A DNA stretch of 64,000 nucleotides from assembly GCF_004118375.1 (NCBI RefSeq), contig NZ_SDHX01000001.1:2979693-3043692 (forward strand). The letters run 5' to 3'. The notes beneath the pieces are model-generated. The model did not search any database. It saw only the letters and a program-made list of their open reading frames with translations, and was not told where the DNA came from. Position 1 is the first letter of the stretch. Each line of letters begins with the position of its first letter. Shown here piece by piece: positions 6,630-25,577 of this stretch. The position numbers and the translations under genes are program-made. This DNA is from Oleiharenicola lentus. GTDB lineage: Bacteria > Verrucomicrobiota > Verrucomicrobiia > Opitutales > Opitutaceae.

Positions 6630-7961
6630 ATGGAGCAACTCACCCACATTTTGCGCGGCCTGTTCGGTTATGGCGCGCTCGTCGGCATCGCCGTTCTGCT
6701 CAGCTACAACCGCAAGGCCATCAACTGGCGGCTCGTTGCCGCCGGCGCGCTGCTCCAAATGGTGTTCGCCGCCGCCGTGCTCTTCGTCGGGCCGGTGCGG
6801 GACGGCGTCGAATGGGTCGGCGGCATCTTCGTGGCCCTGATGGGCTTCACCGGCGAGGGCGTGCGCTTCGTGTTCGGCTCGCTCGCCGATCAGGACAAGC
6901 ACGGCGTCGTGTTCGCCATCGGCATCCTGCCCTCGATCATCTTTTTCTCCGCGTTCACCTCGATGCTCTACTACCTGGGCGTCCTGCAGAAGATCGTCTA
7001 TGCCTACGCCTGGGTCATCTCAAAGTTCATGCCGCTCTCCGGTGCGGAGACGCTGAGCGCCTCCGCCAACATCTTTCTCGGGCAAACCGAAGCCCCGTTC
7101 CTCATCAAGCCCTACCTGCCGCAGATGACCCGCTCGGAGATCTTCACGATCATGGTCGGCGGCATGGCCACCATCGCCGGCGCCGTCATGATCGCCTACA
7201 TCAGTTTCCTCGGCGGCAGCAGCGTGGAGCAGCAGGTGTTGTTCGCCACGCACCTCATCACCGCCTCCGTCATCAACGCCCCGGCCGGGCTGATGGTGTC
7301 AAAAATCATCCTGCCCCAGACCGAGCCGATCAGCAAGGACCTCGCCGTCTCCAAGGAAAAGATCGGCTCCAACCTCGTGGACGCCGTCTGCCTCGGCACG
7401 ACCGACGGCCTGAAGCTCGCCGCCAACGTCGGCGCCATGCTCATCGCCTTCACCGCGCTCGTGGCGCTCTTCAATGCCGTCTTCGGCTGGGTCGGCGCGC
7501 CGCACACGCTCACCATCGCCGGGAACGAGATCTTCACCTACCCGGGCTTCAACGGCTGGATCGACCAGGTCACGGGCGGCGCCTTCAAGTCCTTCTCCCT
7601 CGAGTTCATCCTCGGCATCATCTATGCGCCCGTCGCCTGGCTCATCGGCATCGACAGCGGCTACCTGATGCAGTCGGGCCAGCTGCTCGGCACGCGCACG
7701 GTGCTGAACGAATTCGTCTCCTTCCTCCAGCTCGGCCAGATGAAGGCCAACGGCACCCTCACCGACCAGCGCACGATCATCATCCTGACCTACGCGATGT
7801 GCGGCTTCGCCAACATCGTGTCCATCGGCATCCAGATCGGCGGCATCGGCACGCTCGCGCCGAATCAGCGGGAGAACCTGGCCGCCCTCGGCGTGAAGGC
7901 CGTCTTCGGCGGCACCATCGCCTGCTACCTCTCCGCCTGCGTGGCCGGCATGATGATCTGA
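6630..7961 (+). CDS. NupC/CNT family concentrative nucleoside transporter
   Basis: 443 residues, inner membrane. CNT hallmarks are present in order: an N-terminal helix trio, 'FVFGSLADQDKHGVVFAIGI', GQTEAPFLIKPYL at about 151-163 (nucleoside and Na+ site), SSVEQQVLFATHLITASV, NEFVSFLQL in the C-terminal half, and 'TYAMCGFANIVSIGIQIGGI'. CNT proteins import nucleosides with Na+ or H+. The ATG at 6630 begins MEQLTHILRGLFGYGALVG, a normal CNT N-terminus. Neighbouring genes do not suggest a specific substrate. It is convergent with the AsmA-like gene, with about 120 bp between. Confidence 0.92.
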   Translation: MEQLTHILRGLFGYGALVGIAVLLSYNRKAINWRLVAAGALLQMVFAAAVLFVGPVRDGVEWVGGIFVALMGFTGEGVRFVFGSLADQDKHGVVFAIGILPSIIFFSAFTSMLYYLGVLQKIVYAYAWVISKFMPLSGAETLSASANIFLGQTEAPFLIKPYLPQMTRSEIFTIMVGGMATIAGAVMIAYISFLGGSSVEQQVLFATHLITASVINAPAGLMVSKIILPQTEPISKDLAVSKEKIGSNLVDAVCLGTTDGLKLAANVGAMLIAFTALVALFNAVFGWVGAPHTLTIAGNEIFTYPGFNGWIDQVTGGAFKSFSLEFILGIIYAPVAWLIGIDSGYLMQSGQLLGTRTVLNEFVSFLQLGQMKANGTLTDQRTIIILTYAMCGFANIVSIGIQIGGIGTLAPNQRENLAALGVKAVFGGTIACYLSACVAGMMI

Positions 7962-8084
7962 GGCACCGCGACCCAATTGGGGCCGAAAGAGCTCCGGGCC
8001 GCTATTTCTGTGCGGACATCGCGGCCGACGCGGAGCGCAGGGCCCCATTTGTCTTTCGCCCCAGGCCAGGCGCAGCGGTTCACT

Positions 8085-9530
8085 TCAGGGCATGATGGCG
8101 AGGAACCGCTCGACCGCCCCGTTGACGGGATAAGTGAAGGCAACCGGCTGTGCGTCCACCCAGCCGCGCACCACGCAGCGCGCCGTGGTGCCCAGGGGCA
8201 GCCCCGGCGGACGAATTTCGAAACGGCACTCCTCCACGCGCACCAGCACGCTCTGGTTGCCGGCGGCCTTGAACAGCCGTTCCGTCGCGGCATCCATGGT
8301 CGCCCCCGAGCGCACCAGGGCCGCGGCGTTGAACTGAAGGTCCGCCGGCACCCCGGGCAGGGTCGCGAGCTCGCCGGTGGAGATCAGCACGCCGCTTTCA
8401 TCCATGCGGAGCACCAGACGACCCAGCGCGCGCCCGCCCAGCCGCGGCGCCACGCGCGGCGCCAATTCGAACAGTTTGGCCACGCGCAGATCCGCGACCT
8501 TCAGCTCGAGCGTGAGCGCGGTTTCACCGAGCTGGTAGCCAAAGGGCTGCGTCTCCACCCGGCCGCCCAAGGCTGACGCCACGGCCCGACTGACGTTGAT
8601 TTGTTTTCCGTTCCAGAGTCCGAAGTCCAGGTCCAGATCGTCAAAGGGCAATCGCCCCGCCCGCAGCTGCCGCACCTGCAGCCGGCCCGCGGATGTCCGC
8701 AGCTTCCAGAGGTCGGAGAACTCCAGGTCCGCCTCCGCCCCGGTGAGGGTGATGTCCCTCGTCCCGGCCTTGAAGTCCGCCTCCCGCAGGCTGACCCGGG
8801 CGGTGGCGGCGAAACGCTTGGCGGTCACCTTCCCCTCGGCCACGCCGGTCAGCCGGCCGGCCAAGGTCCACGGACCTCCCGGCAGCAGCACGAGGCGCTG
8901 GATCTGCGGCGACCAGGACGCCAGATCGAGCTCCGCGCTATGCACCTGGAAGTCCAGCTCCTGCCCCGCGCGGAGCAGGGTGCCGCTGCCCGCCAGGCGG
9001 AAGCCCTCGGCCTCGGCGACGAGGCTGCCGATCCAAGAAGTGCCGCTCCGGGGCTGGCTCTCGAGCTTGACGGCCACGGGTCGGTCGGGCGTGAGCGCCA
9101 TCCGCACCACCAGTTCGCCCTCCAGCGCAAGCGAGCGGAAGGGCGGCGGCACCGGTTCATCCCCCAACCCGCCGTCCTCATAGGTGTCCCAAACAACCGC
9201 CTGCACGTCGGAATTGTCGAGCGCCACCGGCACGCGGGCGCCTTCCACCTGCACGTCGCCGAGCGAGGCCTGCCACCATTTCTCCCGCACCAGGATCACC
9301 CGTCGGGCGGATACCGGCTGGGAACGGAAGGTGCAGGCCAGGTCCGCCACCTCCAACCGCCACGGGGTGCCACGCACTTCGCCATGCCGGATCTCGGTGG
9401 CCCCGGCCATGCGCAGGACCGAACGCACCACATAGCCCCCGAGCCAGAGCCGCGCCGCCAGCAAGGTCGCGCCCAAGGCCACCCCCGCCGCGACGATCCA
9501 GAACCAGCGGTGGCGGAGGAGCGAATTCAT
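8085..9530 (-). CDS. AsmA/YdbH-like membrane-anchored periplasmic protein
   Basis: 481 residues. A single N-terminal anchor (HRWFWIVAAGVALGATLLAA, about 7-28) precedes a long beta-strand-rich periplasmic part. Repeated strand pairs such as 'LEVADLACTF', 'SLALEGELVVRM' and 'LTLELKVADLRVAKLFEL' suggest the long beta-groove architecture of AsmA, YdbH and TamB proteins that move phospholipids between membranes. The assignment rests on this pattern, not on a sharp motif. The ATG at 9530 was chosen because the membrane anchor follows directly. It is divergent from the TMEM175-like gene, with 95 bp between. Confidence 0.6.
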   Translation of the reverse strand: MNSLLRHRWFWIVAAGVALGATLLAARLWLGGYVVRSVLRMAGATEIRHGEVRGTPWRLEVADLACTFRSQPVSARRVILVREKWWQASLGDVQVEGARVPVALDNSDVQAVVWDTYEDGGLGDEPVPPPFRSLALEGELVVRMALTPDRPVAVKLESQPRSGTSWIGSLVAEAEGFRLAGSGTLLRAGQELDFQVHSAELDLASWSPQIQRLVLLPGGPWTLAGRLTGVAEGKVTAKRFAATARVSLREADFKAGTRDITLTGAEADLEFSDLWKLRTSAGRLQVRQLRAGRLPFDDLDLDFGLWNGKQINVSRAVASALGGRVETQPFGYQLGETALTLELKVADLRVAKLFELAPRVAPRLGGRALGRLVLRMDESGVLISTGELATLPGVPADLQFNAAALVRSGATMDAATERLFKAAGNQSVLVRVEECRFEIRPPGLPLGTTARCVVRGWVDAQPVAFTYPVNGAVERFLAIMP

Positions 9531-12854: not shown

Positions 12855-12973
12855 AGGCAGGAGGAGTATCACAAGCCGTGCCAACCGCGCACGCAAGGCG
12901 GGACTGCCCCGTCAGCCAACCTTTGCGGAAAAATGCGCAGGATATAAGAAATCTCGCATCCCCGGGGTGGGAT

Positions 12974-14782
12974 TCAGCGCTGAAACCGGCGCGCAAGCTC
13001 GCCGCGACTCAGCTCAAAGTGCGTGGGCCGGCCGGTGGGGCTGCTGTGGGGCTGCGAGCAGGCAAACAACTGGGCCACCAACGCCATCGCCTCACCCTCG
13101 CCCAGGGTCACGGGCAGGCGCACGGCCTTCTGCGCCGCCAGCCGGGCAAGTTCCTCGCGGGCGAGGTCGGCGCGCCGCTCGTCCAGGCGGCCCTCCCGCA
13201 TCAGCCCGATGATGTCGCGCAGGAATCCCTCGGCATCGGCCGGGTCCAGCCAGACCGGGACCGACTCGATGCGGAAAAAATTCCGGCCGAACTCCACCAC
13301 TTCCAGGCCGTGACGATGCAGAAACGGCAACCGCTCCAAGAGCATCGCGCTCGCAATCGCGTCCAGTTCCACGGGCACGGCAAACAGCAGCCGCTGGCTC
13401 GCCACCTCGCCGATGGCAAACTGGGCCTGCAGCCGCTCGAACCAAACCCGTTCGTGCGCCGAGCGCCGGTCGAGCACCACGAGCCCGCCCGGCGCCTCAA
13501 AAAGCGCGTAGTCACCGTGCGCGGTGTCGAGATAACGCCAGCCCATCAGCACGCCGGGCGAGATTCCCGCCGGACGCAATGCCGTCGGTGCAACCGGACT
13601 CGCCGGCTTGAACGGAGCAACCGACACCCGCGGCGGCGGCACCTGGATTGACGGAGGTGGTGATACCGGCGAGAACGGGCGAAAGGGCTGAGCCATCACC
13701 GGGGACGCGGGCGCCGCAAAGAGGGCTGTCGTCGCCGGCACCACCGGATCACCGGGCATCGCCTCCGCCGTTTCACGCGAACTCGCACCGGCACCGAACT
13801 CCCGCAGCGCTTCCAGCACCGCCCGGATCACAAAGCCCCGCACGGCGCCCTCGCTGCGGAAGCGCACCTCGCGCTTGGCCGGATGGACGTTCACGTCCAC
13901 CGCGGCGGGTTCGAGGTCCAGGAAAAGCACGGCCACGGGATACCGGCCCTTCGCCAGCGAGGTCGCGTAGGACTCGATCACCGCGTAGTTGAGCGTGCGG
14001 CTGTCCACCGGGCGCCGGTTCACGAACATGATCATCTCGTGCCGGGTGGCCCGGCTGACTCCGGGCTTGCCGATGAGTCCGCTGAGCTTCAGCCCGATGT
14101 CACTCGCCGCGACGGGCAGAAGGTCCTGGGCAAGTTGCCGGCCGAAGATCTCCCCCACCCGCTCCTCCAGCGTCGTGCAGACGGGCGACTGGAACAACAC
14201 CCGCCCGTCCTCAATCAGCGTGAACGCCGTCTGCGGACAAGACAGCGCGTAGAGCCGCACGGTCTGGACAATGTGCGCCGACTCCGTCGGGTCGCTTTTG
14301 AGAAACTTGCGGCGTGCTGGCACCGAGTTGAACAGGTGCGACACCGTGATGCGCGTGCCCGGCGCCAGGCCGCATTCGCGCACGTGGACGAGTTTGCCGC
14401 CGTTGATGAGAATCTCCGTGCCCGCCGGATCCTCGGCGCGGCGGGTGCGCAGCTCGAAGCGCGACACGCTGGCGATCGAAGGCACCGCCTCGCCCCGGAA
14501 GCCAAAGGTCTCCAGCCGGTCCAGATCGGCCGTTTCCACGAGCTTGCTCGTGGCATGGCGTTCCAGCGACATCTGGGCGTCGTCGCGGGTCATGCCGCAG
14601 CCGTTGTCCTCGACGCGGATCAGGCTGCGCCCGCCGTGGCTGAACTCGACCTCGATCCGGGTCGCCCCCGCGTCGAGCGAGTTCTCCACCAGTTCCTTCA
14701 CCACGGCGGCCGGACGCTCAATCACCTCGCCGGCGGCGATCTGGTTGGCCACGCGGTCGGTGAGGATGCGGATCGTGGGCAT
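12974..14782 (-). CDS. mutL: DNA mismatch repair protein MutL
   Basis: Links mismatch recognition by MutS to strand removal. 602 residues. GHKL ATPase motifs are intact: E30-N34 region (VKELVENSLDAGAT), DNGCGM at 59-64, GFRGEAV at 94-100 (usually GFRGEAL). The C-terminal dimer domain covers about 410-602. The endonuclease motif of most non-enteric MutLs, DQHA-x-x-E, reads DRRSAHE at 438-444, and the second-block Cys appears as Ala (AAQKAV); the end reads 'PHSSPTGRPTHFEL'. So the intrinsic nicking activity is probably lost or changed. It follows an MFS gene by 42 bp. mutS is not in the window. Confidence 0.93.
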   Translation of the reverse strand: MPTIRILTDRVANQIAAGEVIERPAAVVKELVENSLDAGATRIEVEFSHGGRSLIRVEDNGCGMTRDDAQMSLERHATSKLVETADLDRLETFGFRGEAVPSIASVSRFELRTRRAEDPAGTEILINGGKLVHVRECGLAPGTRITVSHLFNSVPARRKFLKSDPTESAHIVQTVRLYALSCPQTAFTLIEDGRVLFQSPVCTTLEERVGEIFGRQLAQDLLPVAASDIGLKLSGLIGKPGVSRATRHEMIMFVNRRPVDSRTLNYAVIESYATSLAKGRYPVAVLFLDLEPAAVDVNVHPAKREVRFRSEGAVRGFVIRAVLEALREFGAGASSRETAEAMPGDPVVPATTALFAAPASPVMAQPFRPFSPVSPPPSIQVPPPRVSVAPFKPASPVAPTALRPAGISPGVLMGWRYLDTAHGDYALFEAPGGLVVLDRRSAHERVWFERLQAQFAIGEVASQRLLFAVPVELDAIASAMLLERLPFLHRHGLEVVEFGRNFFRIESVPVWLDPADAEGFLRDIIGLMREGRLDERRADLAREELARLAAQKAVRLPVTLGEGEAMALVAQLFACSQPHSSPTGRPTHFELSRGELARRFQR

Positions 14783-23725: not shown

Positions 23726-25078
23726 TCAGGCGTTTACCTTGTTTTCCGTCAAAGGCATCATCACGCCCCGCCGGAAGAGCGTCACCTGGCCGGTGCTGGA
23801 TGAAACCACCAGGGCGATGCAATCGGCCGCGACCGAGATTGCCGCCGCCGCCGCATGCCGGGTGCCTAGCCCGCTGGGCAAGGCATGGTTGAAGTCCGCG
23901 GCCTGGATGAGCGCACCCGCGGCGTGGACCACGCCGTCCCCGCCGATGACAAAGGCTCCGTCGATCGAGGAAAACTCCTTGATCGTCTCATCCATGAACG
24001 GGTTAAGGATGTTGCGATCCTCCTCCTTGTAGCCGTAAAACGGATTTAGCACGAGCGGTTTGGTCAGTTTCTCAACCTTCTCGTGGTCGCCCACGACAAA
24101 CAGGCAGCCAACCGGGCGGCCTTCCCTGCCCTCCACCGCCAGCTCGGTCGCCACGGCGATCACGCGCTCCAAAACCTCGGGTTTCACGTCGGCGGGCAGC
24201 AGATCCGCGTGCCCGCTCAGCAGGGTCGAAAACTCCTTCTCCACGTCAACAATGACGATGGCGTCAAACTGGTTGGAACCGGCCAGGCCGCCGATGCAGC
24301 ACAGGCGGTCCTTGAACGTGATGAAACCGCGGGTCAGGCCGACGAGCACGGCGCTGCGCAGCTGGGCCAACCGTTGGCTGGAAAAGGACCGAACCTGCAC
24401 GCTCTCGTCGAAGCGGCCGGGCCGCGCCTCGCCCTCGGGCAGGTTGCGCGTGACGAGGATGCTCTTGAGCGAGCCCTCGATCTTGGGCGCGCGGATGCGG
24501 CCGGTGAAAACATCGCCAAAGACCATGAGTCCCGTGCAACCGCTGCCCGTGGCAATGCGGCCGGCTTCGCGCAGGACCACACGGTTGAGCCGGGTTTGCG
24601 ATGCCGGCAGGGCCTTGACGGCCACGCCACCAAAGCCGGCGAACAGGAGTTCGTAAAGCGTGTCAAGGTCCGGCGCCTTCAGCAGGCTCTCCACGAAGGC
24701 CGGATCCTTGAACAGTTGGGCCAGGGCGGCGAGCAGCTGCAGGTAATCCCGGGTTTTCTCATCGGCGAGCAGCATCACCACGAGGTGGACCGGCTCGCTC
24801 TCGATCGCGCTGTCGTAACGGATGCCGTAGTGGCTGCGCCCCACGGCTAGGAGGTAACGCCGGTTCATCTTCAGGCGCACATGCGGCATGGCCACGCCGC
24901 CGCCCAGGTAAGTCGTCATCGTGCTCTCGCGGCGCAACAGGCCCTTGAGCAGCGTATCCTTGTTCAGGTCGGGAAAGCGCTCGACCGTGAGATTCAGCAG
25001 CTCGACCAGCGCGCCCTCCAGATCGGCGCTGCCAAGGTCGGCGACACGGGCGCGGGAGATGTATTTGTCGAGCCGCAT
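23726..25078 (-). CDS. PTS EIIA (type 2) domain fused to a diadenylate cyclase (DisA_N) domain
   Basis: 450 residues. Residues 1-150 form a PTS EIIA-2/NtrN-like domain: '[20 protein letters not shown]', then [10 protein letters not shown] with H66 at the phosphorylation position, and '[19 protein letters not shown]'. A middle part (about 160-300) has '[15 protein letters not shown]' and '[18 protein letters not shown]'. The end is a diadenylate cyclase domain: [18 protein letters not shown] with DGA at 373-375, and [17 protein letters not shown] with GTRH at 405-408 (DisA and CdaA have RHR). Such enzymes make c-di-AMP from two ATP. The fusion suggests that sugar or nitrogen phosphotransfer state controls c-di-AMP. 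No membrane segments, unlike CdaA. Confidence 0.88.
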
Positions 25079-25205: not shown

Positions 25206-25577
25206 TTACTTCTCCCACTCCAAAGCACCCTTCTTCACTTCGTAGAACAGGCCGAGGACGAGCACGCCGAGGAAGAACAGCATCGGGGCGAGAATCGAGA
25301 TGTGGTTGGCGAGAAAGTCGCGATAGACGAAGGTCCAGGGGATGAGGAACACAACCTCGATGTCGAACAGGATGAACAGCATCGCGGTGACGTAGAATTT
25401 CACCGAGAAGCGCGTGTGCGTGCTGCCATCGGAGTGGATGCCGCACTCGTAGGCCGCGTCCTTGATCTTGCTGCCCCGCGCGCGCTGGCCAAGCAGGTGG
25501 CTGGCCGCGATGACGCCGACGGTGATGCCGGCGGCGAGCAGGATCTGGATGAGAAACGGCAGAAAGGCGGAGGACAT
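25206..25577 (-). CDS. nuoA: NADH-quinone oxidoreductase subunit A (complex I, NuoA/NdhC)
   Basis: 123 residues, inner membrane. Three helices at about 6-26, 62-84 and 92-112. The conserved loop KDAAYECGIHSDGSTHTRFS and the acidic helix 2 (FILFDIEVVFLIPW) identify it. It should be part of the 11-14-subunit complex I, but no other nuo gene is near: scpA is divergent on one side and the cyclase fusion lies on the other. Either the remaining nuo genes are elsewhere or this is a second copy. Confidence 0.93.
   Translation of the reverse strand: MSSAFLPFLIQILLAAGITVGVIAASHLLGQRARGSKIKDAAYECGIHSDGSTHTRFSVKFYVTAMLFILFDIEVVFLIPWTFVYRDFLANHISILAPMLFFLGVLVLGLFYEVKKGALEWEK

Follow-up and report, generated by a model that had tools for sequence, protein, structure and literature searches.

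The name DacD, given to a class of diadenylate cyclases (DACs), reportedly comes from the 2013 review by Corrigan and Gruendling, and the 2023 census of DAC architectures by Galperin is said probably to list an EIIA-DacZ_P-DAC architecture. In E. coli, EIIA-Glc controls adenylate cyclase. As in the system proposed below, a nucleotide cyclase is governed there by an EIIA of the PTS; the difference is that the E. coli EIIA stands apart from the cyclase as a protein of its own, and that cAMP is what is made. The proteins listed as DacD are from Lacunisphaera limnophila, Coraliomargarita, Puniceicoccaceae and Opitutae (PMC6741144); the passages concerned give the class no architecture, activity or regulation. 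According to the same paper, archaeal DacZ has a predicted PK_C fold, a fold that in pyruvate kinase binds fructose-1,6-bisphosphate, and the activity of H. volcanii DacZ was measured and is Mn-dependent (PMC6741144). On the PTS side, PtsN, the EIIA of the PTS-Ntr, acts on K+ transport in several proteobacteria by protein contact (PMC13104625); its unphosphorylated form activates kdp in E. coli and rhizobia (PMC9239096), the opposite form being given as active in Pseudomonas putida (PMC13104625). Finally, kimA and kdp of bacilli are under the control of c-di-AMP riboswitches, which have also been predicted ahead of K+ genes in other phyla, the Verrucomicrobia among them (PMC6488665).

The window, i.e. 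the whole stretch of 64,000 nucleotides of Oleiharenicola lentus that was analysed, carries at 23726-25078 of the minus strand an ORF of 450 aa with an ATG start (ORF translation); read in the same frame, the plus strand of this interval contains stops. The protein was aligned with its relatives as 131 distinct sequences including the query, leaving aside L001 and L002 (which duplicate the window protein), matches below 85 bits (CdaA-type) and identical repeats, and keeping a few fragments (L100, L102, L103 and L154). Counts over 126 rows refer to the sequences that cover at least 400 of the 450 positions. The features of the locus are as follows.

23726..25078, minus strand: complete cyclase gene, EIIA - DacZ_P - DAC, 450 aa; stop codon at 23726-23728
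24644..25018, minus strand: PTS_EIIA_2 domain, EIIA-Ntr-like, residues 21-145 (Pfam and model fold)
24881..24883, minus strand: H66 codon (checked), expected phosphorylation site; H in 122/126 rows
24224..24589, minus strand: DacZ_P domain, pyruvate-kinase C-terminal fold, residues 164-285 (Pfam and model fold)
23762..24139, minus strand: DAC (diadenylate cyclase) domain, DacZ type, residues 314-439 (Pfam and identity to DacZ)
23954..23962, minus strand: DGA motif, residues 373-375; D and G in 126/126 rows, A in 112/126
23855..23866, minus strand: GTRH motif, residues 405-408; R and H in 126/126 rows
23795..23803, minus strand: SSS where CdaA has SEE, residues 426-428; S426 in 126/126 rows, S428 in 125/126
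25206..25577, minus strand: nuoA, NADH-quinone oxidoreductase subunit A, 127 nt upstream of the cyclase gene (Pfam Oxidored_q4, E 1.7e-31)

The EIIA-diadenylate cyclase fusion announced by the original prediction is real. Pfam recognises PTS_EIIA_2 (PF00359) at residues 21-145 (E 9.8e-23, 81.2 bits, cut-off 27) and DAC (PF02457) at residues 314-439 (E 1.2e-22, 80.1 bits, cut-off 27); the latter is the significant match within residues 300-450 on which that prediction had made itself depend. The motifs also stand where it had placed them, as checked in the translation: the ten-residue stretch with H66 ([10 protein letters not shown]), DGA at 373-375 and GTRH at 405-408, followed by A409. The DisA DNA-binding domain that it had described as absent is indeed missing, the Pfam scan of the 450-aa protein giving no match to the DisA C-terminal domain. 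The middle region, which it overlooked, holds a third domain, DacZ_P (PF21755), at residues 164-285 (E 1.8e-17, 63.6 bits, cut-off 27.4), called a "probable sensor domain" by Pfam. The three domains occur together in 54/54 members of a family alignment composed of the window protein and 53 of 80 named loci. Hydropathy shows one peak, with a mean of 1.92 over 19 residues starting at residue 409; it belongs to the DAC core, where it follows the RH motif and precedes the next strand.

A chance or mispredicted ORF was rejected in view of the three domains found in 54/54 chosen relatives, of M at position 1 in 94% and of R at position 11 in 99% of the 126 rows. A mobile origin is unsupported: the DAC region (161 aa) has no phage match, and its plasmid matches are two Haladaptatus dacZ genes. 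The Rfam scan of the window returned two tRNAs and nothing else; at the locus, the scan for sigma-70 promoters gave none, and there were four terminator-like sites for 2.7 expected.

We consider it rather probable that this protein is a cyclase of the DacZ type, gated both through phosphorylation of its EIIA and by the pyruvate kinase-like domain, and that it serves K+ homeostasis. The original prediction holds for the fusion, H66, the relay proteins and the likeness to EIIA-Ntr; it missed DacZ_P, and neither its worry about RHA nor its claim that no known class fits survives as stated.

The cyclase was found in 52 of 57 genomes, a sample that includes the own genome of the window; the copy of G047 is split between contigs and that of G048 has an internal stop. 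No match appeared in G041, G050, G052, G053 and G054, three of which are at most 80% complete. G053 is an Opitutales genome, 95% complete, without match to the cyclase sequence. In a wider sample of 240 genomes of the phylum, 39 in the Opitutales and 201 outside, the fusion is carried by 37/39 Opitutales genomes. Beyond the order, it is present at full length in G059, G089, G203 and G277, three of which have a second DAC match, and as a partial match in G160 (among the matches listed). The same fusion, which the original prediction had proposed to look for in other Verrucomicrobia, is found both throughout most of the sampled order and in four genomes outside it. The 80 named loci, out of 130 relatives, overlap with the numbered genomes; those named below phylum belong to Opitutia/Opitutales, e.g. 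Lacunisphaera, Opitutus, Didemnitutus, Ereboglobus and Puniceicoccaceae, and the rest are labelled no more closely than Verrucomicrobia, Verrucomicrobiota or bacterium.

A profile search for DAC in the own genome gave a single match, the fusion protein itself. More generally, exactly one DAC match was obtained in 35/39 Opitutales genomes, the exceptions being G267 and G216 with two and G054 and G190 with none (among the matches listed). The second match of G216 (L100, G216:C1:3446839-3447618) is a frame of 300 aa without detectable EIIA part. Outside the Opitutales 195/201 genomes have a DAC match, in frames mostly near 290 aa (among the matches listed). The CdaA-type DACs of these other Verrucomicrobiota were compared over 15 of 30 loci, those recognised by motif search. 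They share the DGA and G-T-R-H motifs with the fusion, a likeness that is partly by construction since the motif search itself imposes DGA and RH; they differ from it by RHR and SEE, which the search did not impose and which are present in 15/15 loci. In most of the sampled Opitutales genomes, the EIIA fusion takes the place of a CdaA-type DAC.

Because the fusion is the only DAC match in these 35 of 39 genomes (among the matches listed), the DacD class is very probably this same family: judged by taxon and by sole-DAC status, the class name DacD probably already covers it. That no known cyclase class fits, as the original prediction had it, was too strong a statement, given that Opitutae proteins are listed as DacD (PMC6741144) and that the middle domain is in Pfam. 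The literature searched, of which coverage was partial, yielded no description of an EIIA-DAC fusion, and we make no claim that the architecture is unpublished; nor did it yield a test of the regulation of this family.

The full-length AlphaFold model, computed with 54 aligned sequences, has a mean pLDDT of 76.8 and a pTM of 0.60, and the arrangement of the domains in it is therefore unreliable. For the middle domain (residues 150-292 modelled alone, pLDDT 77.6), all 50 of the matches listed are pyruvate kinases, with Z from 13.1 to 11.7 and rmsd from 2.9 to 3.9. Among them is 1f3x_A, of which only the C-terminal part, 404-530, is covered by the alignment (Z 11.7, rmsd 2.9, 117 aligned). The presence of DacZ_P with a pyruvate-kinase C-terminal fold implies that a metabolite may be a second input to the protein, and the middle domain probably binds a small one.

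The fold of the EIIA part is closest to EIIA-Ntr. Among the matches listed, the top four are all EIIA-Ntr (Z 21.3 to 19.8), led by 1a6j_A (Z 21.3, rmsd 1.8, 147 aligned), and EIIA-Mtl comes behind (1a3a_A, Z 16.0). With proteobacterial PtsN the domain shares the fold, the active-site histidine, a regulatory-looking PTS and a likely link to K+. It differs in that PtsN is a separate protein acting by contact, whereas here the EIIA is joined to a second-messenger enzyme. A type-2 EIIA with H66 as active-site residue had been proposed at the outset, and the alignment bears this out: the position is H in 122/126 near-full-length rows, and in 124/129 ungapped ones across all 131. The four exceptions have S in L089 and L090 (G193 and G219), Y in L094 (G039) and R in L088 (G160), the N-terminus of the last being poorly readable. 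The genomes of all four carry an EI match; L089 and L090, with a serine despite EI, are a natural test of the purpose of phosphorylation.

The relay proteins are widespread. EI was found in 51/57 genomes, HPr in 53/57 and HPr kinase in 53/57, and the own genome has all three, with one EI match and one HPr match. EI was not found in G014, G020, G042, G047, G049 and G050, nor HPr in G006, G014, G042 and G044, the HPr search being confined to genomes other than G193, G219 and those of other classes. The HPr kinase search can miss, since it gave no match in the control, B. subtilis, a species that has this kinase. The EIIC permease family PF02378 has a match in 2/57 genomes and none in the own genome. 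Thus the PTS of the Opitutales looks mainly regulatory, as far as PF02378 alone can tell. A sugar-transport role was rejected on these counts, within the limit that PF02378 is the sole permease family covered, mannose-, galactitol- and sorbitol-type permeases lying outside the search. The PTS-Ntr-like setting of the original prediction agrees with a genome that has EI, HPr and HPr kinase, no PF02378 permease and an EIIA whose best fold match is EIIA-Ntr. The own genome also contains an additional, separate EIIA-like frame.

These data make it plausible that H66 is phosphorylated and gates the DAC. The EIIA domain could instead be a docking module, whose unphosphorylated form binds partners, or serve assembly alone, H66 phosphorylation not gating an otherwise active DAC and the main input being the metabolite at the pyruvate kinase-like domain, which we regard as unlikely, albeit the least unlikely of the alternatives. 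This would account for the replacement of H66 in four members whose genomes have an EI match and for G042 (93% complete), which is without EI, HPr and HPr kinase matches and nevertheless keeps H66, i.e. a phosphorylation site with no detectable relay. It would also be in line with proteobacterial PtsN, which works through contact (PMC13104625), and with two archaeal DacZ proteins that have no EIIA domain in a class of proven activity. It accords poorly with a histidine kept in 122/126 rows, and with an EI gene that adjoins the cyclase gene in G203.

The neighbourhood of G203, a genome of another class, consists, after the cyclase gene, of a convergent EI gene and then an amino-acid permease fused to PTS_EIIA_2 and, before it, of a radical-SAM gene, a zinc-ribbon protein fused to PTS_EIIA_2 and pntB. 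At this locus (L200) the two PTS_EIIA_2 fusions, at 7277-8119 and 12881-14716, flank the cyclase gene, EI lying between cyclase and permease. It is possibly a PTS-controlled gene cluster. G277 has a similar gene order without EI, judged by length and N-terminal resemblance, the Pfam scan having covered the cyclase only. Pfam recognised nothing in three genes next to the cyclase gene of G089.

The c-di-AMP riboswitch RF00379 scores above cut-off in 9/57 genomes, and the four of these nine that were rerun by cmscan with the same model were all above cut-off again. A kimA-like gene follows the riboswitch in G003, G012, G036 and G052, and follows a below-cut-off match in G004, where the above-cut-off copy reads off its contig. 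The KimA-like protein of G012 (L215) matches the PDB KimA 6s3k with E 2.5e-62; the NCBIfam scan of three KimA-like proteins gave no match. In G023, a one-contig genome whose single DAC match is the fusion cyclase, the riboswitch is followed by kup. In G016 a Band_7 gene and then kdpA come after it, in G021 a Band_7 gene with no K+ gene identified behind, and in G034 one gene and then a kimA-like frame, both by sequence likeness. The Band_7 (SPFH) gene that comes first in G016 and G021, with a similar-looking gene in G034, may belong to K+ uptake. The riboswitch loci are L226, L214, L215, L227, L230, L216, L228 and L229. G052 is 50% complete, and no cyclase was detected in it. The cyclases of the riboswitch genomes have RHA and SSS in 6/6 displayed, and also in G021.

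No riboswitch above cut-off was found in the other 48/57 genomes (stricter-filter scan), nor any c-di-AMP riboswitch in the own genome, where 78/82 candidates were scored, and 47/82 under stricter filters. The 7TMR-HDED domain, which occurs in the c-di-AMP phosphodiesterase PgpH, is present in 31/57 genomes; the own genome has no such PgpH-type match.

A nuoA gene is the same-strand upstream neighbour of the cyclase gene in 74/80 loci, with gaps of 6 to 522 nt (median 54.5), and in the window at 127 nt. Of the six loci without it, the cyclase gene of L152, L163 and L166 starts at most 263 bases from a contig end, and L165, L171 and L181 are real absences. Beside the window nuoA (25206-25577), no further nuo gene stands out among the listed ORFs, part of which were scanned. 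It is possible that nuoA is an operon partner of the cyclase gene, and co-transcription could then mean that c-di-AMP reports a redox or proton-motive state rather than serving K+. We hold this link to respiration to be improbable. Besides the conserved nuoA, it would draw on the proximity of the cyclase gene to pntB in G203 and to a similar-looking protein in G277; against it, the genes after the riboswitches of relatives are K+ genes wherever they were identified, gene order within one order can persist by shared descent, and in the window the gap to the putative operon partner is 127 nt.

Among the matches listed for the DAC part of the model are 2fb5_A of B. cereus (Z 16.3 and rmsd 5.6, with 159 aligned), DisA of M. 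tuberculosis (9y9y_H, Z 15.7 and rmsd 2.6, with 131 aligned) and CdaA-AMP (8c4n_B, Z 15.3 and rmsd 2.9, with 131 aligned). The DAC is of the DacZ subtype. Its identity to one haloarchaeal DacZ reaches 34% over 183 aa (pairwise E 3e-28), RH-x and S-x-S are common to both, and a PK_C-like domain, with the pyruvate-kinase-C-like fold, stands directly N-terminal to the DAC as in the DacZ superfamily. It departs from archaeal DacZ, alias CdaZ, in that two archaeal proteins have an N-terminal DACZ_N (PF19294) and no EIIA. With the archaeal DacZ equivalog NF041371 the protein scores 110 bits for a cut-off of 430, over residues 239-440 only; the NCBIfam models of CdaA, DisA, CdaS and CdaM give 22 to 32 bits for cut-offs of 189 to 225.

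The active site keeps D373, R407, H408 and S426 invariant in 126/126 rows. Residue 409 is A in 107/126 rows, residue 428 is Ser in 125/126, and residue 427 is E in 9/126. The metal-holding Glu that CdaA has in its SEE motif is thus absent, with Ser at 428. Among the ten active-site residues listed for L. monocytogenes CdaA are Asp of DGA, Thr, Arg and His of GxRHRxA and, from SEE, the Ser and the second, metal-holding Glu; the third residue of RHR is absent from that list (PMC7288161). At the same places RHH and SES are read in two haloarchaeal DacZ proteins, which hence also have Ser at the 428 position, and E at the 427 position. Since they have these residues and H. volcanii DacZ is proven active, the departures at 409 and 428 belong to the DacZ subtype, and the SEE Glu is a CdaA feature whose replacement by Ser does not exclude activity. 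On sequence, S427 is the remaining special feature relative to the two haloarchaeal DacZ. The doubt that the original prediction drew from RHA in place of RHR was right about the residue and is largely removed as a sign of inactivity, given RHH in haloarchaeal DacZ and a third residue outside the CdaA ten. Decay of the DAC from RHA was likewise rejected, the change being family-wide. That the DAC is catalytically weak or dead and the protein a sensor of c-di-AMP or ATP, for which the change of the third RHR residue and of both SEE Glu in most members would speak, is the least probable alternative, very improbable in view of RHH and SES in the two haloarchaeal proteins beside an active H. volcanii enzyme (PMC6741144), of the four invariant residues, of the fusion as only DAC match (among those listed) in G023, a c-di-AMP riboswitch genome, and of the 7TMR-HDED domain in 31/57 genomes. 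On our reading the protein would be a soluble DacZ-type diadenylate cyclase making c-di-AMP from ATP.

In the reading that we favour, the EIIA-Ntr-like domain would be the terminal acceptor of a regulatory PTS, phosphate passing from PEP to EI, HPr and H66; its phosphorylation would thus follow the supply of PEP. The middle domain, with the fold of the pyruvate kinase allosteric domain, would bind a small metabolite, and the two inputs would jointly set the output of a C-terminal DAC dimer. c-di-AMP would in turn control K+ uptake, in some relatives via riboswitches before kimA-like, kup and kdp genes. As to direction, our guess is that unphosphorylated EIIA lowers cyclase output and K+ import is favoured, in line with the action of PtsN on kdp (PMC9239096). 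Several observations go against this reading: H66 is lost in 4/126 rows despite EI, G042 has H66 without a detected relay, G047 (95% complete) has no EI match, the own genome is without riboswitch or 7TMR-HDED match, and the CdaA metal Glu is Ser.

An EIIA and a pyruvate kinase-like sensor on the only DAC found in most sampled Opitutales could tie the energy state of the cell to its potassium balance. We put forward tentatively, at rather less than even confidence, a more complete version: a PTS that lost sugar transport, at least of the PF02378 type, became a signalling relay acting chiefly on the one enzyme with which the cell makes c-di-AMP, the PEP/pyruvate node being read twice, as EIIA phosphate and as a metabolite on the pyruvate kinase fold, and c-di-AMP setting K+ uptake. 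Candidate inputs for the control of c-di-AMP synthesis are here built into the sole DAC match of a genome, which brings the question of control within reach of purified EI, HPr and cyclase. Should this version be true, it would provide a function for a PTS in which no PF02378 sugar permease is detected. It would also unite in one polypeptide two ways of controlling K+ that have mostly been studied in separate bacteria, by the PTS-Ntr in proteobacteria and by c-di-AMP in Firmicutes.
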